IMG/VR virus record: IMGVR_UViG_3300024344_000143 | Location: 1 to 22,219 of that record | Strand: one strand, 5' to 3' | Length of the DNA: 22,219 nucleotides | Source of the DNA: a virus | In this document: piece by piece, positions 536-15,871 of the stretch | Numbering within the stretch: position 1 is the first letter of the stretch | Layout: every line of letters begins with the position of its first letter | The notes under the pieces: generated by a model | Databases searched by the model: none | What the model saw: the letters and a program-made list of their open reading frames with translations, nothing else | Told to the model about the DNA's origin: nothing | Position numbers and translations under genes: made by a program

Positions 536-682
536 GCTGTTAGTTATATACCATTAGCTATAAACTAGTATTACTATCTGTATATAATAGACCCGGCCTA
601 GGGGGCCTAATTACTATTATATCCCTATACAGCAATCTGTCAAGAAAAATCGTATTTTTTTTATTTTTTTTTTATTTTTTAC

Positions 683-710
683 TTGACAACATCCTGATTC
701 TGGATATAAT
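683..710 (+). promoter_or_regulatory. Sigma70-type promoter for the structural operon
   Basis: TTGACA at 683-688 and TATAAT at 705-710 match both consensus hexamers exactly, with a 16-base spacer. T-rich tracts at 655-680 lie just upstream and resemble an UP element. Transcription would start near 717, about 100 bases before the first gene. It is the only convincing promoter found and reads towards all annotated genes. It implies use of the host RNA polymerase rather than a phage-specific late promoter. Confidence 0.88.
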
Positions 711-2602: not shown

Positions 2603-2795
2603 ATTAAATTGTATAGGTTTTCCTCATGATGACCCTTATGGATTATCAGAAGCATTTTGGAAAATATTTACTAAACCTAAAACAGAAAATAAAGTATTAC
2701 CCTATTTAAAAGCAATAAAAAATGAATCAGATACTCCCAAACCGAAAAAAAGAATTAACCCAAAAACAGGAAAAATTTCTAGACGTTCTCTTTAG
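2595..2795 (+). CDS. Small hypothetical protein overlapping terS (66 aa)
   Basis: ATG 2595 overlaps the end of the cysteine-rich gene (ATGAGTAA). A longer version from 2517 would run through that gene in another frame with a low-complexity Val/Asn leader, so 2595 is preferred. The N-terminal part (CIGFPHDDPYGLSEAFWKIF) looks folded, and the C-terminal 25 residues are Lys/Pro-rich. The last 74 bases overlap the start of the small terminase gene in another frame. The function is unknown; position suggests a packaging accessory. Confidence 0.6.
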   Translation: MSKLNCIGFPHDDPYGLSEAFWKIFTKPKTENKVLPYLKAIKNESDTPKPKKRINPKTGKISRRSL

Positions 2796-3129
2796 CAACG
2801 GAGGACAAGTAATGTCCGCTATTGAAGAGGCAGGATACAGCCCAGATTCTAGAGGGTGGTTAATGAAGTCTGTAAAAGACGAAATTATAGATAGAGCCAA
2901 AACACAATTAGCAGGTTCTTCTGTAAAAGCAATAAATAGATTAACAGAAGGATTAGATGCTGATGGAACTATACCTTCTGGACAAATGGATGTTAGAATG
3001 AAAGCTGCTTCTGAAATATTAGATAGAACAGGTATTAGTAAACGTCAGGAAGTTAATGTTAGTGGTCAAGTGTTACATGGTGTTGTAATGTTACCGGCTA
3101 AAGATAAAATAAAAACAATAAATGAATGA
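2722..3129 (+). CDS. terS: Terminase small subunit
   Basis: This protein would recognise the packaging site on phage DNA and hand it to the large subunit. Residues 12-40 (LTQKQEKFLDVLFSNGG, then an AIEEAGY helix) match the N-terminal helix-turn-helix typical of TerS (Terminase_2-like). A central helical region (about 50-110) suits ring assembly, and the C-terminal tail probably contacts TerL. At 135 aa it has normal length for the family. No better start exists in frame than ATG 2722, which overlaps the previous gene by 74 bases without a clear Shine-Dalgarno. Its stop overlaps the terL start (ATGA), the usual coupled arrangement. The identification rests on the motif pattern and the neighbour. 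Confidence 0.85.
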   Translation: MNQILPNRKKELTQKQEKFLDVLFSNGGQVMSAIEEAGYSPDSRGWLMKSVKDEIIDRAKTQLAGSSVKAINRLTEGLDADGTIPSGQMDVRMKAASEILDRTGISKRQEVNVSGQVLHGVVMLPAKDKIKTINE

Positions 3130-4757
3130 CAAGAACATATCATTTCAGCATTGCACAGAAGGCAAGAATAGAAGCCAGACGTAAATTAAGAGAAAAGCAA
3201 AAGAAAGCAGACAAATTAGCAAAGAAATTAGCTAATGAACGTCAAAGAACAAAAGAATTAAAAGAAAACCTTAAAAGAGTTGATGCAATCAACAAAAAAG
3301 GTGGTGCTATAACAGATGATATACTGGATAAAGTACCAAAATCAGTTAAAAAGTCAGTAGAAGACCAAGCTGAAGTAGTTTTTATGCCTAATGAAGGCCC
3401 ACAAACTAAATTTTTAGCTTCTCCAGAGAAAGAAGTACTTTATGGAGGTGCTGCAGGTGGTGGAAAATCATTTGCACTACTAGTTGACTTACTTAGATAC
3501 TGTCATAATCCAAATCATAGGGCATTATTACTAAGAAGAACATTAGCTGAACTAACAGAATTAATAGATAGTAGCCGAAAACTCTATGCGAAAGCATTTC
3601 CGGGTGCTATTTTTAAAGAATCAAAAAGTACATGGCATTTTCCATCTGGTGCAACAGCATTATTCTCATATGTGGACAAAGACAGCGATGTAACAAGGTA
3701 TCAAGGACAAGCATTTACTTGGATTGGTATTGATGAGCTAGGACATTATCCTACTCCTTATGTTTGGAACTACTTACGTTCACGTTTACGTAGTACAGAT
3801 AAAAGTATTGACACATATATGAGAGCTTCTTCTAACCCCGGTGGTGTAGGAGGATGGTGGATAAAGAAAATGTTTGTAGACCCAGTATTACCGGGTGAAC
3901 CTTTTTATGCTACAGACATAGATACAGGTGACGTTTTAAAATTTGGTAGATATCACGAAAAAGCAGGTGAACCTTTATTTCAAAGAAAGTTTATACCTGC
4001 ACGATTAACAGATAATCCATATCTTGCTGAATCTGGTGAATATGAAGCAATGCTTTCATCATTACCTGAAGTAGAAAGAAAGAGATTATTAGATGGTGAC
4101 TGGGATGTTGCAGAAGGGGCAGCATTTCCAGAGTTCAGTAAAGTTATACACGTTATTGAACCTTATGAATTACCCAACAATTGGATAAGAATACGTTCTG
4201 CTGATTATGGATATTCCTCACCAAGTTGTGTCCTTTGGGGTGCAGTTGATTGGGATGGAAATATAATTATATACAGAGAACTATATCAGAGTGGACTTAC
4301 GGGTGAACAACTTGCAAACAGAATAAATGACTTAGAGGTTTATGACCCTCCAATGCACACTTCTGTACTAGATGCTAGTTGTTGGAGTAAATCAGGTATT
4401 GGCCCTAGTATTGCTGATAGCATTATTAGAGCCGGTATACGTTTTGTACCATCAAACAGAGATAGAATAAGTGGTAAAGTAGAATTACATAGACGATTGT
4501 CTATACGAGAAAAAACAGGTGAACCACAATTAAAAATATTTTCTAATTGTATAAACTTGATTAGAACATTACCAACAATACCTTATGCAAAAAATAATGC
4601 AGAGGATGTTGATACAAAAACAGATGACCATGCTTACGATGCTTTACGTTATATGGTTATGACAAGACAGACAGGTGAACGGCAAAGAGCCAATTACAGA
4701 TTAAATAAATTAAAAGCAGAAACATATGAACCAGTAGATAGGATTTTTGGATATTAA
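3126..4757 (+). CDS. terL: Terminase large subunit
   Basis: The ATP-driven DNA packaging motor and nuclease that docks on the portal. The N-terminal 60 residues are a Lys/Arg-rich coiled coil, longer than in many TerL proteins. The ATPase Walker A is GGAAGGGKS (residues 107-115) and the Walker B is IGIDE (200-204), with E204 as the likely catalytic Glu. The RNase H-like nuclease domain begins at the SADYGYSS strand (D360), followed by VLDAS (D416) and a DDHAYDALRY motif (D501 or D505), giving the acidic triad that binds metal. At 543 aa it is within the usual range. It overlaps terS by ATGA. Nothing key is missing, so it should be active. Confidence 0.97.
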   Translation: MTRTYHFSIAQKARIEARRKLREKQKKADKLAKKLANERQRTKELKENLKRVDAINKKGGAITDDILDKVPKSVKKSVEDQAEVVFMPNEGPQTKFLASPEKEVLYGGAAGGGKSFALLVDLLRYCHNPNHRALLLRRTLAELTELIDSSRKLYAKAFPGAIFKESKSTWHFPSGATALFSYVDKDSDVTRYQGQAFTWIGIDELGHYPTPYVWNYLRSRLRSTDKSIDTYMRASSNPGGVGGWWIKKMFVDPVLPGEPFYATDIDTGDVLKFGRYHEKAGEPLFQRKFIPARLTDNPYLAESGEYEAMLSSLPEVERKRLLDGDWDVAEGAAFPEFSKVIHVIEPYELPNNWIRIRSADYGYSSPSCVLWGAVDWDGNIIIYRELYQSGLTGEQLANRINDLEVYDPPMHTSVLDASCWSKSGIGPSIADSIIRAGIRFVPSNRDRISGKVELHRRLSIREKTGEPQLKIFSNCINLIRTLPTIPYAKNNAEDVDTKTDDHAYDALRYMVMTRQTGERQRANYRLNKLKAETYEPVDRIFGY

Positions 4758-4758
4758 T

Positions 4759-6729
4759 ATGGCTGAAGATACAAAAAGAGCTTTAGAAACTTTACAAGAT
4801 TTAGCAATTGATGCGGCTAGTGGTCTAGCTGAAGAAACTGAGGTATATCAAGAAGCTGAACGTCTTGTAGCGGATAATAAAACATTATTTGGAACAGTTA
4901 ATGCTATTATAAATAAAGAATTAGGCGGTTCAATTAATTTAGGTGAAAATAAAGAATTAGGTTTTATGATTAAACCAGAAGAAAAAAAAGCTCATATTGG
5001 TTTTAAAATGAGTTTTCAAAGTGGTGATGTAGTTCAAGGTAGTTTGACTGTTGTAGAAGCATTAGAGGAGTATCTTGCTGATTTAAAAAGACGAGGTAAA
5101 AATCTTTCTGCAACACAGGGATTTATTACTAAATTCCAAAATAGTCAATTGGGAAATATGTTAATTGATGATATTGGAAAAGATACATCTTCTGCTGTAA
5201 AATTTTTTCATAATCCAGAAATATTAAATATGACTCAGGATATGAGAAGTTCATTACGAAGTGTATTAGGGTCTGCTGCTAATGCAACTAAACCCGGTTC
5301 TGGTGTAATTTTTACTTCAATAAAAAAAAATGAACCTACTGCACTAACAAAAGGATTACCAAAAAGCCAATTAACACCAGAAGGTAAATTTTTTGTAACT
5401 GCACAACCAAAAGCTTCTTTTGGGTTAAGGAATGCTGTCCCCCATGTTTATAAAGCAATACCTAAAATTGTTGATAATGAATCTAGATTATTTGCAACAG
5501 TTATGGCTTTTACAGGATTAAGACCTGAAGAATTATACAAAGTAACAGCATCCCAAATTGATTTAGATAATTTTGAAATAACAAATGTAGGTGGAAAAAA
5601 AGGTGGCCCCGGAATGATTCCTACTGGAGGTAAAACATTTACATTATCACCTTTAGCATTAGAGGCTATTACAGAATTAAAAGAAAATGCTGATGAAAAA
5701 GGAAAAATATTTAAAAAAACACAAGCTACATTAAAGGCAAATATTAAAAAGACTGTCATTACTGAATTAGATAGTGTTGATAAAGAATTAAATAAAGCAC
5801 TAAAAAAAGGTAAATTAAAAGGTTTTCAAGTTAAACTATTCAGAGATATTGTACAGACAGGTGGTAAGAATATTGGATTAGGTGCTCTTGGTGTAAAAGA
5901 AATGGTAGGTCATACTTTAAAAGGGAGTGACATACAAATGTTTTATACATCTGGTGAAAGAATATTGCCGGGTGTTAATGAAGAAATGCGATTAAATGCA
6001 ACTAGATTACAAAATGCATTTTTAAGAAATGCCGGATTTGAATCCCCAAGAGAATTTGGTTTACAAATGGGTTTAAGTGAAGAAAAAATTGGAAGATTAG
6101 AAACAGCTTTAGTTGACCCGGAAGCCCCTAGTACAGCAAGACCTACAGCATTACCTGCAGAACAGGAATTTATAGATGAATCAAAAACAAGAACAAGTAC
6201 TCAAGCATCTAAAGAAGTAAGAGAAACAGCAGCAGAAAAAATTGCAAGGCAACAAGCTCAAATTACTGGACAAGAAGGAAGATTAAGAGAGATAGAATCA
6301 CAAGCAGCAAAATCAGGAACACGAGCAGGTACAGGAAAAGCTATTAAAAGAGAAGGTGGTAAACAAGTTTTAAAGAAATTAGGTTTATTAGGTGTTGGAG
6401 CAGCAGTGGGTACAGGAGTTGCAAAAACAATTATAGGTGGCCCAATTGGAGCAGCAACAACAGTTGCTCAACTAGGTGCAGACCAATATTTAAATCCAAG
6501 AGAATTTAAAAAGTCAGAAGAATATGAACCTTATCAATTAGCAAAAAAAATACAAAGTCAAGAAACAGGATTAAGAAGTTTTATTAGTTCTGATAAAGAT
6601 GTAAGAGCTAATTATGATAAATTACATGAAATGGGGTATTCAAAACAAGATGCCTTAACTAAAGGTAAAAACAAACAATTACAATCGAGAGATAATTTAA
6701 AAAATCAATTAGCCAGTATATTTACATAA
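4759..6729 (+). CDS. Tyrosine recombinase with long C-terminal extension
   Basis: Residues about 230-400 carry the complete tyrosine recombinase catalytic set: TGLRPEE (R255), a beta-hairpin lysine (K292 or a nearby Lys), KLFR in place of HxLR (K359, R362), MVGH (H385) and the nucleophile in MFYTS (Y396). Residues about 75-215 would be the core-binding domain. This fold cuts and rejoins DNA through a 3'-phosphotyrosine. Beyond Y396 lie about 260 extra residues: a Gln/Glu/Ala-rich probable coiled coil (470-530), a Gly/Ala/Ile-rich hydrophobic stretch (about 543-572) and a charged tail. Integrases are usually 300-450 aa, so this is unusually long. I chose ATG 4759, one base after the terL stop; an upstream TTG at 4747 is less likely. 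It is co-oriented with the structural genes. It may integrate the phage or resolve concatemers, and a virion role cannot be excluded. Confidence 0.82.
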   Translation: MAEDTKRALETLQDLAIDAASGLAEETEVYQEAERLVADNKTLFGTVNAIINKELGGSINLGENKELGFMIKPEEKKAHIGFKMSFQSGDVVQGSLTVVEALEEYLADLKRRGKNLSATQGFITKFQNSQLGNMLIDDIGKDTSSAVKFFHNPEILNMTQDMRSSLRSVLGSAANATKPGSGVIFTSIKKNEPTALTKGLPKSQLTPEGKFFVTAQPKASFGLRNAVPHVYKAIPKIVDNESRLFATVMAFTGLRPEELYKVTASQIDLDNFEITNVGGKKGGPGMIPTGGKTFTLSPLALEAITELKENADEKGKIFKKTQATLKANIKKTVITELDSVDKELNKALKKGKLKGFQVKLFRDIVQTGGKNIGLGALGVKEMVGHTLKGSDIQMFYTSGERILPGVNEEMRLNATRLQNAFLRNAGFESPREFGLQMGLSEEKIGRLETALVDPEAPSTARPTALPAEQEFIDESKTRTSTQASKEVRETAAEKIARQQAQITGQEGRLREIESQAAKSGTRAGTGKAIKREGGKQVLKKLGLLGVGAAVGTGVAKTIIGGPIGAATTVAQLGADQYLNPREFKKSEEYEPYQLAKKIQSQETGLRSFISSDKDVRANYDKLHEMGYSKQDALTKGKNKQLQSRDNLKNQLASIFT

Positions 6730-6732
6730 TAT

Positions 6733-7062
6733 ATGAATAAAATACCACAATCTATAAAGATTGGATATAGAGATTATAAATTAGAAAAGTGGAAACAAAC
6801 TGTTGCTAGTGCAAATGAAGCACATGGACAGTTTTTTGCTAAAGAAGGTATAATAGGTTATACTGATGAAGAAAAGGGAGTTTCTCATGCTAATACAATT
6901 TTGCATGAAATATTACACGCAATAGTTTATCAATGGAATGTTGAACTAGGTGAGAAAGAAGAAGAAACTTTAGTTAATAGTTTAACTAATGGTTTAACAA
7001 CAGTATTTGTAGATAATCCAGAATTACTAGATTATTTAAAAAACAAAATAAAGGAGGGCTAA
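6733..7062 (+). CDS. Small HExxH zincin-like protein (109 aa)
   Basis: Residues 58-63 read HEILHA, the HExxH zinc-binding and catalytic motif of metallopeptidases, in a helix after a short beta-rich N-terminal half. A downstream Glu-rich helix (EKEEETLVNSL, about 76-86) could supply the third zinc ligand. Similar small HExxH proteins occur between terminase and portal in marine phages (from memory), with no proven substrate. It could be a prohead or virion protease or an inactive structural relative. It starts four bases after the recombinase gene, without a strong Shine-Dalgarno. The AAGGAGGG before its stop serves the next gene. Confidence 0.75.
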   Translation: MNKIPQSIKIGYRDYKLEKWKQTVASANEAHGQFFAKEGIIGYTDEEKGVSHANTILHEILHAIVYQWNVELGEKEEETLVNSLTNGLTTVFVDNPELLDYLKNKIKEG

Positions 7063-7266
7063 ATGCCACAACCAATAATGACCAAATATAAACAGGGTGA
7101 CCTTGGTATGCCCTATCCTAAAAAAAAGGATAAAATGAAAAATCTTAATCTATCAATGCATGGCGGAGAAGCTGACCCTAGTATTGCTACTAAAGATTAT
7201 CCAACCAAACCAAACAATCATGTGCAATCTTCTTTCTGGAAGAAAGCAAGTGAAAAAGATTATTAG
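7063..7266 (+). CDS. Small protein, paralogue of the next gene (67 aa)
   Basis: It follows the HExxH gene with no gap and has a strong Shine-Dalgarno (AGGAGGG). The N-terminus, MPQPIMTKYKQGDLG, closely matches MPQPIMKKYSQGELG of the following gene; the rest differs and is Lys/Asp/Pro-rich with no domain that I know. The two were probably made by duplication and then diverged. The strong ribosome-binding site suggests a protein needed in quantity, perhaps a head component, but this is inference. Confidence 0.75.
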   Translation: MPQPIMTKYKQGDLGMPYPKKKDKMKNLNLSMHGGEADPSIATKDYPTKPNNHVQSSFWKKASEKDY

Positions 7267-7275
7267 GAGGAAATA

Positions 7276-7485
7276 ATGCCACAACCAATTATGAAAAAAT
7301 ACTCGCAAGGAGAACTAGGTGATACTTATGCAAAAAAAGCTAATGCATCATTAGAGTCATTTGCTTCAAAAAAAATTAAGCATGGAGAACTTAGTAGTTC
7401 AGCCGATAAACCGGGTAAAAAAAATAAAGGACAAGGTTTAAAAGCCATGGGTGCTGACGATTATAGTTTAGACAAAAAATTTTAA
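7276..7485 (+). CDS. Small protein, paralogue of the previous gene (69 aa)
   Basis: AGGAGG precedes the ATG at good spacing. It begins MPQPIMKKYSQGELG like its neighbour, then has an Ala/Ser/Lys-rich helical stretch and a Lys/Gly-rich part, ending in an aromatic-tipped tail (DDYSLDKKF; the neighbour ends SEKDY). No enzyme motif is visible. It sits directly before the portal gene, a place where phages often encode small head-completion or portal-associated proteins. Confidence 0.75.
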   Translation: MPQPIMKKYSQGELGDTYAKKANASLESFASKKIKHGELSSSADKPGKKNKGQGLKAMGADDYSLDKKF

Positions 7486-7497
7486 TAAAGGATATTA

Positions 7498-9594
7498 ATG
7501 GCTATCGACAAAACAGATGAGGCCAAAGAGATAGATAATGCCGAGAATGTTCCCGGCTTAGTTGCTCACGTTAAAAAAAAATTTACATCTGCTGAAGATG
7601 GAAAGAATGAAGATGAAACACGATGGCTAAAAGCATATAAAAATTATCGTGGTATTTTTGATAGTACAACTCAATTTCGTTCTTCTGAAAAATCTAAAGT
7701 ATTTGTAAAAATAACAAAAGTAAAAGTTCTATCTGCTTATGGACAAATTGCAGATATATTATTTGCTAATAGCAAATTTCCATTATCTGTAGAAGCTACT
7801 CCCGTACCAGAAGGCATAGCTGAATTTGCACATTTACAAACACCTCAGTCTCCACCAATGACTGACCCCTATGGGTTTAATGGTGATGGACGAGTATTAG
7901 AACCGGGTGCAATGGAAGCAACTGCACCAAAAGATTTTTTAGGTGGTTTATCTTCTAAATTTTCTGGAACTAATCTTAGAGAAGGTGCAGCTAAAATGGG
8001 GGAACCCCAAATTAAACCTGCTCAAGAAACTGCTCGTAAAATGGAAAAAATGATACATGACCAGTTACTTGATACTTCTGCTGTTAATGTGTTAAGACAT
8101 TCTATATTTGAATGTGCTTTATTAGGTACAGGAATTATTAAAGGGCCATTTAGTTATAACAAAAAAGTACATCAATGGATGGGAACTGGGGACGAAAAAG
8201 AATATAGTCCCTATGATAAAGAAGTACCTAAAATTGAAGCGGTATCATGTTGGGATTTTTTTCCAGACCCTTCTGCTACAAATATAGATGATTGTGAATA
8301 TGTTATACAAAGACATAGATTAAATAGAGAACAATTAAAAGATTTAATTAATAGACCTTATTTCGATAAAAATGCTATTTTAGAAACATTAGATATTGGG
8401 CCAAATTATGAAGAAAAATATTATGAACAAACTATTCATGGTGTTAATGACCCGACATATGTAGATAATAGATACGAGGTTTATGAATATTGGGGTAATT
8501 GTGATGCCTCATTATGTGAAGAAATTGGAATGACAATTCCACAAGGAATGACTGATTTAAAATCAGTACAAGTTAATGTATGGATTTGTGGCAATAAAGT
8601 TTTACGTGCTGTACTGAATCCATTTACACCAGAACGAATACCATATCAAGCATTTCCTTATGAGTTAAATCCATATCAATTTTTTGGCATTGGAGTTGCT
8701 GAAAATATGGATGATGCCCAATTATTAATGAATGGTCATATTAGAATGGCTATAGATAATTTAGCATTAGCAGGTAATTTAGTATTTGATATTGATGAAA
8801 CTCAATTAGTTCCCGGACAAAGTATGGATATATTTCCGGGTAAAATATTTAGAAGACAATCTGGAGTTACTGGAACGGCAGTAAATGGAATTAAATTTCC
8901 AAGTACAGCACAAGAAAATGTTCAGATGTATGATAAAGCAAGACAATTAGCTGATGAAGAAACAGGAATACCTTCTGTAGTTCATGGACAAACAGGTGTG
9001 ACAGGCACAGGAAGAACAGCAGCAGGTTTATCAATGATTATGTCTTCAGCAGGATTATCCATAAAAACTGTAATCAAAAATGTAGATGATTATCTGTTAA
9101 AACCATTAGGTGAAGCAATGTTTCAATGGAATATGCAATTTGGAAAAACACCAGACGTTATAGGTGATTTAGAAATTAAACCTAAAGGTACATCCGCAGT
9201 AATGCAGAAAGAAGTTAGAACGCAAAGATTAACTACTTTATTGCAAACAGTAGCAAACCCAATGTTAGCTCCATTTATAAAACTCCCTAATTTAATGAGG
9301 GAATTGGCAATAGCACAAGATATTGACCCAGAAAGTTTAGTAAATGATATGAGTGAAGCAGCTATCTTTGCAGATATGTTAAGAGGATTAGCAAATGTTC
9401 AAGGCACAGGCCCAGAAACTCAGCCCACTGGTGAACAACCAACAGGCATGGAAGGCACTGGAGGAGCACCTTCAGGAGCAAATCAACCAAACGTATCAGG
9501 TCTTGGGAACGGCCAAATCGGAGTCGGAAATGTTCCACAATCAGGGGAAACTGGCTTCACTGGTTCACCTCAAGAACCTGAAGGAATCGTGTAA
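7498..9594 (+). CDS. Portal protein
   Basis: The dodecameric ring at one vertex through which DNA enters and leaves, and on which the tail assembles. It is assigned from its size (698 aa), its place after terminase and before scaffold and capsid, and its sequence: an N-terminal helical part (WLKAYKNYRGI), a central region with WDFFPDP (about 257-263), aromatic-rich strands, and a long clip/stem-like region (ENMDDAQLLMNGHIRMAIDN, about 401-420). It resembles portals of marine podovirus-like phages as I remember them. The last 60 residues are Gly/Thr/Pro/Gln-rich and low in complexity, exactly where a second gene overlaps in another frame. AAGGA precedes the ATG. Confidence 0.92.
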   Translation: MAIDKTDEAKEIDNAENVPGLVAHVKKKFTSAEDGKNEDETRWLKAYKNYRGIFDSTTQFRSSEKSKVFVKITKVKVLSAYGQIADILFANSKFPLSVEATPVPEGIAEFAHLQTPQSPPMTDPYGFNGDGRVLEPGAMEATAPKDFLGGLSSKFSGTNLREGAAKMGEPQIKPAQETARKMEKMIHDQLLDTSAVNVLRHSIFECALLGTGIIKGPFSYNKKVHQWMGTGDEKEYSPYDKEVPKIEAVSCWDFFPDPSATNIDDCEYVIQRHRLNREQLKDLINRPYFDKNAILETLDIGPNYEEKYYEQTIHGVNDPTYVDNRYEVYEYWGNCDASLCEEIGMTIPQGMTDLKSVQVNVWICGNKVLRAVLNPFTPERIPYQAFPYELNPYQFFGIGVAENMDDAQLLMNGHIRMAIDNLALAGNLVFDIDETQLVPGQSMDIFPGKIFRRQSGVTGTAVNGIKFPSTAQENVQMYDKARQLADEETGIPSVVHGQTGVTGTGRTAAGLSMIMSSAGLSIKTVIKNVDDYLLKPLGEAMFQWNMQFGKTPDVIGDLEIKPKGTSAVMQKEVRTQRLTTLLQTVANPMLAPFIKLPNLMRELAIAQDIDPESLVNDMSEAAIFADMLRGLANVQGTGPETQPTGEQPTGMEGTGGAPSGANQPNVSGLGNGQIGVGNVPQSGETGFTGSPQEPEGIV

Positions 9595-9625: not shown

Positions 9626-11317
9626 ATGGTAGATTGGTATGATACACAGGAAGCGGTAAAGGCAGCAGTAAAACCTAGTAATAGGCCACATGAAATGATG
9701 GAAATGAGAAATAAGAAAACATTTCCAAATATACAAGCTGAAACATCTGCAAATTCAAAAAATAAATCTGTTGAAAATTCTAATTGGGGTAATGTAGCCC
9801 CACCTCCACCAACATCACAAAATTATTCAAAAAATACTGAACATAAAAATACAAAATCTGATAATACATTTAGTTTTTATGATAGAGGTACGAATTTTAC
9901 TAATAATAATATAAAAACTCCTAATACTGCATTTAATGATACTGGTTTTTTTGATAGAGGTAATTATGCTGTTAATAAAAATTTAGCAAGTGATAGACCA
10001 CCGGGAATTGCAAAAGCTAATAATAAAAATATATATCATTTTGATAATGATAATGAAGGCTTTATAGATATTGATAGTTTACCTTTTGATGACGATAAAA
10101 CATATGGAGATATGGCTGATGAACAAGATGATTTAATAGATTGGTGGTATAGTGACAAAGATAAAGGTCTCAATGGTTTAGGAGCATCACTTTTTGGAAA
10201 ATCTAATATTAATCATGCAAATCATAATATAGCTTCTACTCATTCCATAGCTAAAAAAATACAAGAGTTAAATCCAGAATGGACATGGCATGAAGTTTTA
10301 AACTTTATACAAGGTGATTATCACGAGGATGGAAGAAAAAGTGTTTTAGGTAAATATACTAATGAAGATGGACTTGCTTTAGCTATTCCAAATAAAAGAG
10401 GGGATAAATGGAAATCTATTAATCCTGATACATGGGCAGTTATGGGAATTGATTTAAATGATACATCAACATTTTTTGATGAAAGAGGAAAAACAAAACA
10501 TTATAATACATTTAGTGGTGGATTACGTGGTAATTGGGAAATGAATACTGGAGAATTAATGGATAGAGAAAGTTATACCACAAATTTAAATATGTTAGGA
10601 GCAAAAATAGACCCTAGTAATAAAGATTTATTTCAACAACAACGTAATTTAATTGATAGAGTTAAATTTTTTAATCCACATCATGGTAAATCAGGATTAG
10701 CAAAAGTATTTCTGGGAGCACTAGCAGGATTTGGTGGTGTACCGGGAATGTTAGCTACACAAGCTATTAATAGTAAAGCAACGGCAGAAGGAACTAGAGA
10801 ACCATTAGACCAAAAACTGCTTGAAACTTTAGTTGCACCATTTACACCATGGTTTGAACAAGAAGGAATTGGTGAAAATGGAATTGAAAGTATGTTTGCA
10901 TCAAGTGGTGGTATTATTATAAATGATAAAACATCATTAGCAAATAAATATAATTTATCACAATATCACTATGATGAAACAGATATTAATAAAGATAATC
11001 CGTCAGAAAGACATTCAATGTATAACCCTCAAAAATATACATCTGAAGATGCTGTTTCACCAGAAACAAAATATGGACAGTGGATTGGTACAGATGAAAC
11101 AGAAGCTTATTCAACAGATTTTATAGATTCAGATGGTGATGGAGTAGATGATAGATGGCAATCAGGGCCGGGAGAACCTAGTCAAAAACCGGGAGAGTCA
11201 CAGGGAACATCAACAGCAGCAACAAATAATCCTGCGTGGATGGATTTTAGTGGTGGTTTTGAAAGATTATTTACAGCAAAAGAAGGTGGAATTGTAGGAT
11301 TTATGGAGAAAAAATAA
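9626..11317 (+). CDS. Large unknown virion-like protein with Ca-loop motif (563 aa)
   Basis: I do not recognise the family. Residues 1-170 are Asn/Thr/Asp-rich and probably disordered, with repeated FYDRG and FFDRG motifs. A compact region (about 190-330) contains ELNPEWTWHEVLNF and NPDTWAVMGIDLN. A Gly/Ala/Leu-rich segment (LAKVFLGALAGFGGVPGMLA, about 354-373) could touch membrane. DSDGDGVDDRW (501-511) matches the calcium-binding loop seen in EF-hand, dockerin and thrombospondin type 3 repeats. It ends GFMEKK, and the next gene begins MTGFMRK. Its place between portal and scaffold, beside a lysozyme fusion, suggests an internal or ejected virion protein. Confidence 0.7.
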   Translation: MVDWYDTQEAVKAAVKPSNRPHEMMEMRNKKTFPNIQAETSANSKNKSVENSNWGNVAPPPPTSQNYSKNTEHKNTKSDNTFSFYDRGTNFTNNNIKTPNTAFNDTGFFDRGNYAVNKNLASDRPPGIAKANNKNIYHFDNDNEGFIDIDSLPFDDDKTYGDMADEQDDLIDWWYSDKDKGLNGLGASLFGKSNINHANHNIASTHSIAKKIQELNPEWTWHEVLNFIQGDYHEDGRKSVLGKYTNEDGLALAIPNKRGDKWKSINPDTWAVMGIDLNDTSTFFDERGKTKHYNTFSGGLRGNWEMNTGELMDRESYTTNLNMLGAKIDPSNKDLFQQQRNLIDRVKFFNPHHGKSGLAKVFLGALAGFGGVPGMLATQAINSKATAEGTREPLDQKLLETLVAPFTPWFEQEGIGENGIESMFASSGGIIINDKTSLANKYNLSQYHYDETDINKDNPSERHSMYNPQKYTSEDAVSPETKYGQWIGTDETEAYSTDFIDSDGDGVDDRWQSGPGEPSQKPGESQGTSTAATNNPAWMDFSGGFERLFTAKEGGIVGFMEKK

Positions 11318-12936
11318 TGACAGGATTTATGAGAAAACCACAAATGATTAATGACCCTAGTGCGGCTCCTGCTGCAATGAGAGCAGATGATGTAGATTTA
11401 CAAGCTCAAGAAGGTGATTTTATAATGGGTTATCCTGCAATGCAACAAAATGGCCCAAGAGTAAGAAGTTTAGTTGAACGTGCTATGTTAAGAGCAAAAG
11501 ATGCAGGTGTTAAAACTAAAGGTTATAAACATGGTGATAAAGTAGATATACTTGTACATAATGGTGAAATGCAAATACCAAATCAATTAGTTAAATATAT
11601 TGAAGGTGGCTATACAACATTAAAAAAATTAAATGCTCCGTCTAAACATCAAGAGGGGGATGTTGTATCCGATAGACAGCCGGGTTTAGATAACCCAGAA
11701 TTATTCGATTTTTTCTCACTTAATGATGAAGAAAAAATGAAATTTTTTAGTAGGGAATATAAAAGAAGATTTCCTCCAGCGATATCCGATAGACAACCGG
11801 GTTTAGATAACCAAATGGCAGATTTAAATCAAGCTGTAATGACTATATCAGCCCCAACTGAAGGTGGTGGACTTTTATTTGATAAAAAAAATGCTAAAGA
11901 TTATCCATCCGTACAAAAAAATGGATTATATTCTGAGCAATTATGGAAAAAATTTTTAAATAAATTAGTTAAATTAACTCCATCTAATCCCACTATACAA
12001 AGAGAAACAGCAATAAAAGTTAAAGAAGCAATAGAAAGTAGTACAAAATCAGTAAATCCAAGAATATTATTAAATAATAAATTTATAAAAAATTCTAATG
12101 CATCAACTGAATTTCATTATTTAATGAATGAAACTAATAAAATGATGAATACAACTAATGTTCCTTATAAAGTTGAATTAATAAGAGATGGTTTAATATT
12201 TGATTATCCAGAAGGAACACCCGGATTAACAGGTAAAAATAAATCTTATAAAACATATAAAGATTTTTTTAGCCCTATGAATCTTGATTATAATTCAAAT
12301 GAACCCCTATCACATTTAAGCAAACAAGTATTACAAGCTAAAAAAATGTTTTCTGATACAGATGATATTTCAACAGATATGACAGGAAATACAGGACAGC
12401 ATAGTAGACAGTCTTATAAAGCTCAATTCCCTGCAGAATATGGTAAATTATTTCAATTTTTAAAAGATGTAGAACAACATAATTCATCTATTTATCAAGA
12501 CGTAGGAAAACCGGCTATAGGATATGGTCATAGATTATCATCAGATGAACTAAAAGCATATAATGGAATGCCGGGAGAAAGGTCTGTTCCTAATTGGAAT
12601 AAAGAAGATTCAGAATATATGTTAGGAAAAGATATATTAGAAGCTGAACATTTAGCAAGAACAATATATAATTCTCATAGTGGTGATAAATTTTCTAATT
12701 TAGATGAAAATAGAAGAATGATGCTTACTGAAATGGCATTTAATATGGGAAATAAATTAAAAGACTTTCCAAAATTTATGAATGCTATAAAAAATGAAGA
12801 TTATCCTACAATGAGTAATGAATATCATAGAACAGCAACAGATGAAAATGGTAACAAATTACAAGGAATTGAAACAAGAAATAAAGAGTTTTTCAGAAGA
12901 TTTATTTCACCTTATTTACATGATAATAAATTTTAA
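11317..12936 (+). CDS. Virion-associated protein with C-terminal T4-type lysozyme
   Basis: The C-terminal 165 residues match GH24 (T4-type) muramidase: E386 and D395, nine residues apart as in T4 lysozyme E11 and D20, then AIGYGH (400-405). The helical body includes LTEMAFNMGNKL and a closing RNKEFFRRF. This enzyme would cut peptidoglycan between MurNAc and GlcNAc. The conserved Thr before IGYGH is Ala (A400), and the loop is one residue short. The N-terminal 110 residues (QEGDFIMGYPA, later VDILVHNGEMQIPN) resemble a domain that I recall from marine phage structural proteins. A repeated SDRQPGLDN occurs twice, 39 residues apart. The fusion and late-operon position suggest a virion lysin used at entry. 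It starts on the previous stop (TAATG). Confidence 0.85.
   Translation: MTGFMRKPQMINDPSAAPAAMRADDVDLQAQEGDFIMGYPAMQQNGPRVRSLVERAMLRAKDAGVKTKGYKHGDKVDILVHNGEMQIPNQLVKYIEGGYTTLKKLNAPSKHQEGDVVSDRQPGLDNPELFDFFSLNDEEKMKFFSREYKRRFPPAISDRQPGLDNQMADLNQAVMTISAPTEGGGLLFDKKNAKDYPSVQKNGLYSEQLWKKFLNKLVKLTPSNPTIQRETAIKVKEAIESSTKSVNPRILLNNKFIKNSNASTEFHYLMNETNKMMNTTNVPYKVELIRDGLIFDYPEGTPGLTGKNKSYKTYKDFFSPMNLDYNSNEPLSHLSKQVLQAKKMFSDTDDISTDMTGNTGQHSRQSYKAQFPAEYGKLFQFLKDVEQHNSSIYQDVGKPAIGYGHRLSSDELKAYNGMPGERSVPNWNKEDSEYMLGKDILEAEHLARTIYNSHSGDKFSNLDENRRMMLTEMAFNMGNKLKDFPKFMNAIKNEDYPTMSNEYHRTATDENGNKLQGIETRNKEFFRRFISPYLHDNKF
11668..11812 (+). repeat. In-frame direct repeat within the lysozyme fusion
   Basis: A 28-base unit at 11668-11695 recurs at 11785-11812 with one mismatch, 117 bases apart and in frame, each encoding SDRQPGLDN. 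It lies in the linker between the N-terminal domain and the lysozyme. A segment between the copies could be gained or lost by recombination without breaking the frame. Confidence 0.8.
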
Positions 12937-15309: not shown

Positions 15310-15513
15310 ATGGTAGTACATGATTTACGGAAGGCATCAAAAGTTGCTTCCGGACAAAAGATTGTTTCTTTGGGTGCAGATAATACTGACTTAGAGAAAC
15401 GAGTATCTAGTATAGAATATAAATTAGATACATTAATAACCTTGCTTAATAAGGAGGCAAATAATGACAAGACTAGACTTAAGCCCATTCAGGGCAATGA
15501 CAGTGGGATTTGA
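15310..15513 (+). CDS. Small coiled-coil protein (67 aa)
   Basis: The first gene after the terminator, with AGAGGA before the ATG. The N-terminal half has VASGQKIVSLG, and the middle (DLEKRVSSIEYKLDTLITLL) is a clear heptad coiled coil. The last 17 codons overlap the Hsp20 gene in another frame. The function is unknown; such small coiled coils may act in assembly. The opposite-strand frame here is a shadow. Confidence 0.65.
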   Translation: MVVHDLRKASKVASGQKIVSLGADNTDLEKRVSSIEYKLDTLITLLNKEANNDKTRLKPIQGNDSGI

Positions 15514-15871
15514 TAGCTTATTTAACGATATAGCTGATTATAGACCCAACAATTATCCACCTTACAATATTGTAAAGTTTGATAATAAAACATACGAACT
15601 AAGTTTTGCAGTTGCAGGATTTTCTAAAAAAGAAATAAGTGTAACACAAAAAGAAAATTCTGTATTTATTGAAGGACAAATTGATACAGAAAGTAAAATA
15701 GAACATGAGTATTTACATAAAGGAATAGCAGAAAGAAATTTTAAACAATCTTTTAAGTTATCTGAATATATGATTGTAACTGATGCAAAATTAGAAAATG
15801 GATTGTTAAAAGTATTATTGGTACAAGAATTACCAAAAGAAAAACAACCTAAAGAAATTAAAATAAATTAA
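15464..15871 (+). CDS. hsp20: Hsp20 family small heat shock protein
   Basis: An ATP-independent chaperone that holds unfolding proteins. Residues about 30-135 form the alpha-crystallin domain: YELSFAVAGFSKKEI, then VFIEGQ, FKQSFKLSEY, and the conserved signature DAKLENGLLKVLL (A-x-x-x-NGxL). The C-terminus EIKIN carries the I-x-I/V type motif that links subunits into oligomers. At 135 aa it is slightly short, with a brief N-terminal arm (SPFRAMTVGFDSLFNDI) typical of IbpA-like proteins. A strong AAGGAGG lies before ATG 15464, inside the previous gene. Phage Hsp20 genes are known from marine phages; placed here it may help head or tail assembly or protect host proteins. Confidence 0.93.
   Translation: MTRLDLSPFRAMTVGFDSLFNDIADYRPNNYPPYNIVKFDNKTYELSFAVAGFSKKEISVTQKENSVFIEGQIDTESKIEHEYLHKGIAERNFKQSFKLSEYMIVTDAKLENGLLKVLLVQELPKEKQPKEIKIN

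Follow-up and report, generated by a model that had tools for sequence, protein, structure and literature searches.

A recombinase gene between terminase and portal genes

The window, meaning the whole stretch of DNA analysed, is a 22,219-base virus fragment with 33% GC, and its packaging and structural genes resemble those of HMO-2011-type marine podoviruses. Judged from the GC content alone, the hosts of this clade may be SAR11. The gene order runs from small ORFs and a terminase small subunit candidate through terL, a tyrosine recombinase gene, three small ORFs and the portal gene to a large unknown gene, a lysozyme-domain protein, coat, HSP20, adaptor and tail genes (Table 1). The coat, portal and adaptor genes are of the P22/SU10 type. 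The portal is 53.7% identical to that of Pelagibacter phage HTVC033P and 46.6% to that of HMO-2011; identity to HMO-2011-type portals is 46-54% over 96-99%, and terL, portal and coat are all related to those of this group. The recombinase gene is packed closely into the operon, with 2 bp of intergenic sequence upstream and 3 bp downstream.

Table 1. Features of the window around the terL-portal slot
Feature	Position	Strand	Remarks
Predicted sigma70-type promoter at head of packaging/structural operon	683..710	+	12/12 consensus match
Predicted divergent partner sigma70 promoter	643-616	-	consensus match
Terminase small subunit candidate	2722-3129		weak
terL, terminase large subunit; left border of variable slot	3126..4757	+	PF03237 5e-9; phrog_979 5e-62
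Tyrosine recombinase gene, 656 aa	4759..6729	+	ATG 4759; alternative in-frame TTG 4747, overlapping terL end
N-module, residues 1-90	4759..5028	+	helices plus 3-strand sheet (AlphaFold)
Core-binding (SAM-like) domain, residues about 97-193	5047..5337	+	AlphaFold helices; matches integrase N-terminal domains 3lys, 2kob, 2kd1
Catalytic domain, residues about 218-426	5410..6036	+	R255, K281, K359, R362, H385, Y396
C-terminal extension	6037..6729	+	long helix 483-518; hydrophobic Gly/Ala stretch about residues 541-575 (LGLLGVGAAVGTGVAKTIIGGPIGAATTVAQLG)
Three small ORFs in recombinase-portal gap; right slot border	6733..7485 (6733-7062, 7063-7266, 7276-7485)	+	conserved 51-99%, unlike recombinase
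SU10-type portal protein	7498..9594	+	PF23899 3.7e-31

The DnaJ-domain DNA polymerase motif (two CXXCXGXG) is absent from the near-complete relatives G001-G006 and present as two motifs in G015 and G012; the polymerase gene itself lies outside the window fragment. G001-G006 lack this signature of HMO-2011-type phages despite their related terL and portal, and therefore may represent a separate group that shares the structural module. A PADLOC search returned chance-level matches only.

Nearly every near-complete relative has a perfect divergent sigma70 pair, with spacers of 16-17, at 1-5 kb upstream of terL. The pair is seen in the window (616-710), in G001-G006, G012-G014 and G020, and also in L012, L013, L014 and L093, which suggests that host RNA polymerase transcribes in both directions. 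The gene had been placed in a late operon when it was read from sequence alone. Operon position by itself does not show late expression, because a 12/12 sigma70-type promoter heads the operon and the divergent pair is common to the relatives. The noncoding stretch at 1-818 of the window holds 20 CTAG in 818 bp, compared with 44 in the remaining 21.4 kb, and a CTAG-rich region around the divergent promoter pair also occurs in L012, L014 and L093.

Fold, catalytic residues and C-terminal extension

The family profile and the structure model make the nature of the protein unambiguous. As a single sequence it matches Pfam PF00589 weakly (E 0.0066, below the curated cut-off) and the integrase family PHROG_1 (phrog_1) at 8e-13. 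A family profile of 30 homologues searched against the PDB matches IntI4 (4e-9), XerD (5e-8), an XerC-like protein (9e-8) and XerH (3e-5), with XerA also matched. The AlphaFold model has a mean pLDDT of 66.9 and a pTM of 0.45, with most of the core at 80-95 and weaker loops. VIA-align of this model gives Z scores of 14.6 to Brujita integrase (5vfz) and 14.4 to 4a8e (XerC-like/XerA), while the catalytic domain compares with 3nkh at 2.7 A over 150 residues and with many integrase catalytic domains at about 3 A. The model, the VIA-align comparison and the family profile thus identify a core-binding domain plus the catalytic fold of the tyrosine recombinase superfamily, and structure prediction bears out the fold that the sequence-only reading had proposed.

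The Arg-I, hairpin Lys, Arg-II, His/Trp and Tyr set is present as R255, K281, R362, H385 and Y396. In an alignment of 69 homologues the tyrosine is kept in all 69, Arg-I in 66, Arg-II in 63, the histidine in 54 and the hairpin lysine in 44, against a core background with a median top-residue fraction of 0.29. The full catalytic set occurs in 55 of the 69, and the other 14 deviate. At the box-II position (HxxR) the window has K359 and the homologues have K, S, G, Y, N, T or E, so this position is not conserved in the family. R255, K359, R362, H385 and Y396 all lie where the sequence-only reading had placed them, and the conservation of the tyrosine and both arginines among homologues supports its catalytic assignment. 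Its catalytic lysine near 292 has to be moved, as residue 292 is lysine in 11 of the 69 homologues; the beta-hairpin catalytic lysine is probably K281.

Beyond the catalytic domain, the model shows helices to about residue 444, then the long helix, a low-confidence region (518-613) with the Gly/Ala-rich stretch, and further helices. The extension of 260 residues with its Gly/Ala hydrophobic segment, first described from the translation, is therefore real. Most family members continue for 190-450 residues past the nucleophile tyrosine, and in most a Gly/Ala hydrophobic stretch follows it by ~100-290 residues; measured against shuffles, the stretch reaches p 0.02 in the window and is in clear excess in only some members. 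No library family accounts for the extension, which places it outside known integrase architecture, as had been suspected. The C-terminal tails are clade-specific (Y.GF, QFEQQSRL, NSFL, IFN) and extension profiles from different clades find no mutual match; they do not show a shared C-terminal packaging tag.

Among known systems, the Xer and integron recombinases (XerA, XerC/D, XerH and IntI4; NF040815, TIGR02225, TIGR02249) give the best family profile matches and share the core-binding and catalytic domains with the Arg-Lys-Arg-His-Tyr set. The slot family differs from them in its C-terminal extension of 190-450 aa, its terL-portal location, its hypervariability and its unconserved box-II His/Lys, and the window's clade adds an N-module. 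Phage integrases (Brujita gp33, 5vfz; lambda Int; Tn1549 Int; PHROG_1) likewise share the fold and catalytic residues, whereas the slot recombinase is about twice their size and lies outside an integration module, with no attP or immunity genes found.

Distribution and divergence of the slot gene

Searches of viral contigs with terL and portal yielded 155 contig stretches, most of which carry an ORF between the two genes. Only through these neighbours did the recombinase family become visible: tblastn of the window recombinase against isolated phages gave no match, and its peptide patterns found nothing in viral contigs. An iterated profile assigned 75 of 111 distinct terL-portal ORFs of at least 250 aa to the recombinase family, and about six of the remainder are portal fragments. 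Counted as distinct terL-portal intervals, about 55 hold the recombinase, 25 hold another long ORF and 14 hold none, one of these 14 (L089) being a contig edge. A recombinase-only query (A9) recovered about 44-45 loci. All newly found loci have terL and/or portal on the expected side and at the expected distance, and the others were known from the terL and portal scans, so no recombinase was found outside the terL-portal slot.

On a terL tree of 91 rows the presence of the recombinase requires 3 changes, compared with 26.5 after shuffling, and every member of three clades (59 rows) keeps it. Because presence tracks the terL tree, the gene is a stable part of these three clades, and the notion of casual cargo that comes and goes was dropped for the recombinase. 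The terL-recombinase-portal order, which had drawn attention as an odd placement in the window, is conserved across the uncultured clade in the viral-contig search. Other slot contents toggle, with empty and filled slots in phages whose terL is 95% identical. Elsewhere the slot is empty or holds unrelated large proteins, including GG-tailed proteins; a FAD-dependent oxidoreductase with a 300-aa N-terminal part in Rhizobium phage RHph_N3_19 (L207:3309-5858); a GDSL lipase-like protein in phiM6 (L007:5222-6829); and, in another clade, a protein modelled as low-confidence helices (L097, pLDDT 64). The recombinase is absent from isolates whose packaging genes are related. A slot recombinase gene goes unmentioned in the published survey of HMO-2011-type phages (PMC9038755), and the open-licence literature yielded no description of a tyrosine recombinase in the terL-portal interval or within virions.

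The recombinase is hypervariable but CATALYTICALLY conserved, with the active-site Tyr and the two Arg nearly unchanged. In relatives whose terL is 99% and portal 92% identical to those of the window, the recombinases are only about 30% identical. DNA identity collapses either right at the terL stop or around codon 90, and it returns at 6733-6737. In the clade with terL above 88%, the N-module is the best conserved part of the protein, at 46-66% identity compared with about 27% for the core. Modules are shuffled between recombinases: in L009 the N-module is 86% like that of L008, the core is nearest L019 (39%) and the C-extension nearest L016 (62%). Close pairs give a recombinase dN/dS of about 0.4-0.7, values that show relaxed purifying selection and do not prove positive selection. 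Other window genes vary as much between near-identical phages: the tail fibre, g9626 (25-33%) and the lysozyme-domain part of g11317 (27-31%). Most of the rest are 50-99% identical.

By computation it is nearly certain that the gene encodes an Xer/integron-integrase-like tyrosine recombinase with intact Arg, Lys, Arg, His and Tyr, that its family is restricted to the terL-portal slot in a single assemblage of uncultured marine podoviruses, and that this family diverges very rapidly and exchanges modules, with the nucleophile and both arginines preserved.

Possible roles of the slot recombinase

The favoured explanation, with a probability of roughly 40%, is that an active recombinase is made together with the virion genes, attaches to the virion by its C-terminal extension, reaches the cell interior along with the DNA, and cuts and rejoins a phage-specific site. 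The protein would be produced from the packaging and virion operon, and association could involve the amphipathic or hydrophobic Gly-Ala segment and the clade-specific tails. Once it had entered alongside the phage DNA, it would cut and rejoin DNA through a short-lived 3'-phosphotyrosyl bond, each phage having a different target site. The target may be the host chromosome or the incoming genome, leading to integration, circularisation or the disabling of a host locus. Hypervariability would then mirror shifts in the host target, as it would for two other products of this operon, the tail fibre and the lysozyme-type protein.

A fuller version of the same idea is more doubtful: a site-specific recombinase that forms part of the phage particle and is injected along with the genome, its target specificity diversifying as fast as the host-range genes, might work on host DNA or on incoming phage DNA from the very beginning of infection with no prior expression. 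Against virion delivery, the profile comparison found no packaging signal common to the slot proteins of one clade and another. The related SU10 virion uses gp20-24 as its ejection proteins (PMC9509320), which does not point to the terL-portal interval. With a sigma70-type promoter the gene could also be expressed as soon as infection begins, which removes the need for virion delivery. If the recombinase is virion-borne, phages would have a previously unreported means of introducing such an enzyme into a cell. The slot family also offers a natural set of very diverse, apparently active (as predicted) recombinases with different target sites, which would be useful for studies of recombinase specificity.

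It is unlikely, though worth weighing, that the protein is an out-of-place integrase of a temperate or pseudotemperate phage that integrates at host att sites, with divergence and module exchange reflecting att-site switching. The integrase-superfamily fold and catalytic residues fit this, a host-type promoter could drive early expression, and CRP-3 of the HMO-2011 group is reported to integrate (PMC9038755). HMO-2011 and CRP-207, with similar packaging modules, have an ordinary integrase in the early region and no gene in the slot, and near-complete slot phages contain no other recombinase, so the second ordinary integrase that the sequence-only reading had considered is absent there. Against integration, neither terL nor recombinase profiles found a provirus in 84,980 species genomes, among which host genomes may be under-sampled; no HTH_3 repressor matched in 10 near-complete relatives, the window being a fragment; the 2 bp and 3 bp gaps leave no intergenic room for an attP beside the gene; and no tRNA-like attP occurs in the contigs examined. 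Two T-arm-like matches in relatives were discarded as tRNA attP, lying within coding sequence with no tRNA context. The nearly doubled protein size and the strict terL-portal position also stay unexplained under this reading. The integrases of HMO-2011, CRP-207 and CRP-3 resemble the slot protein in being tyrosine integrases of phages with related terL and portal, but they are about 300 aa long, lie in the early region and belong to another lineage, in phages whose slot holds no gene. Slot cores are not close to these integrases (core HMM 7-9 bits), and an origin from the group's early integrase is not supported. The HMO-2011-group survey found no identifiable lysogeny genes in subgroups IV-X, and members of this dominant marine group without a recognised integrase have been described as perhaps obligately lytic (PMC9038755). 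This question is affected by the finding that phages resembling that group have, in their packaging operon, a conserved recombinase that had gone unrecognised.

A role in genome processing is quite improbable. Here the recombinase would resolve concatemers or multimers, or circularise the genome, at a phage-borne site and in step with packaging, in a Cre- or Xer-like manner. Its place beside terL and portal, kept throughout three clades, and its Xer-like family matches agree with such a role, which has also been proposed for phiCbK gp143 (PMC3556154). Sister phages with the same packaging genes, however, package without it, their slot being empty or unrelated. The 22-kb window contains no lox-like site (arms of 11 bp, up to 1 mismatch). 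Because the recombinases diverge extremely between phages with 99% identical terL, a target site would have to co-vary, whereas the noncoding region upstream is 75-80% conserved. Both phiCbK gp143 and the XerC/XerD genes of Lacusarx are tyrosine recombinases in phages not known as temperate; gp143 differs in being a 208-aa minimal core (PMC3556154), and those of Lacusarx are found in a tRNA or a miscellaneous region rather than in the terL-portal interval (PMC5648845).

Protelomerases of the TelN/TelK type are large proteins with a tyrosine-recombinase-type catalytic domain. The slot recombinase has no listed Pfam or NCBIfam match of that type, and no telRL-type palindrome (arms of at least 12 bp, spacer 0-10) appears in 13 sequences (the window, 10 long relatives and 2 shorter contigs), which may lack ends. 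The terminus resolvase suggested by the sequence-only reading is thus unsupported in its protelomerase form, and this candidate was set aside.

Very unlikely is a recombinase-fold DNA-binding protein or self-mobile cassette in place of a working recombinase: such regulators exist (MrpR of SPbeta, 8a0a, is in the fold list at Z 8.4), 14 of 69 members deviate from the full catalytic set and alleles are swapped with sharp borders, but conservation of Tyr in 69/69, Arg-I at 96% and Arg-II at 91%, compared with a 29% median, argues for catalysis. At filled and empty sites, identity ends with the terL stop and picks up again some 20-28 bp further on, with no overlap and no flanking core repeat, unlike recombinase-mediated insertion. 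The recombinase therefore does not appear to insert its own gene, and the self-mobile cassette was rejected; the closest filled/empty pairs hold non-recombinase slot genes and are an indirect test for the recombinase.

Elsewhere in the window, the ORFs at 7063-7266 and 7276-7485 are tandem paralogues (repeat D2) just 5' of the portal gene, and an HSP20/alpha-crystallin-like ORF (15464-15871) lies amid head and tail genes. In the region 9626-12936, g11317 keeps an N-terminus of ~120 aa, and the part beyond, including the lysozyme domain, is hypervariable. Three consecutive ORFs end in a common YSKGGGVRxAKYKI-like C-tail (1274-1327, 1738-1791 and 2186-2239), and similar C-tails (YAMGGKVYSNSVRKPKFK) terminate non-recombinase slot proteins of other phages.
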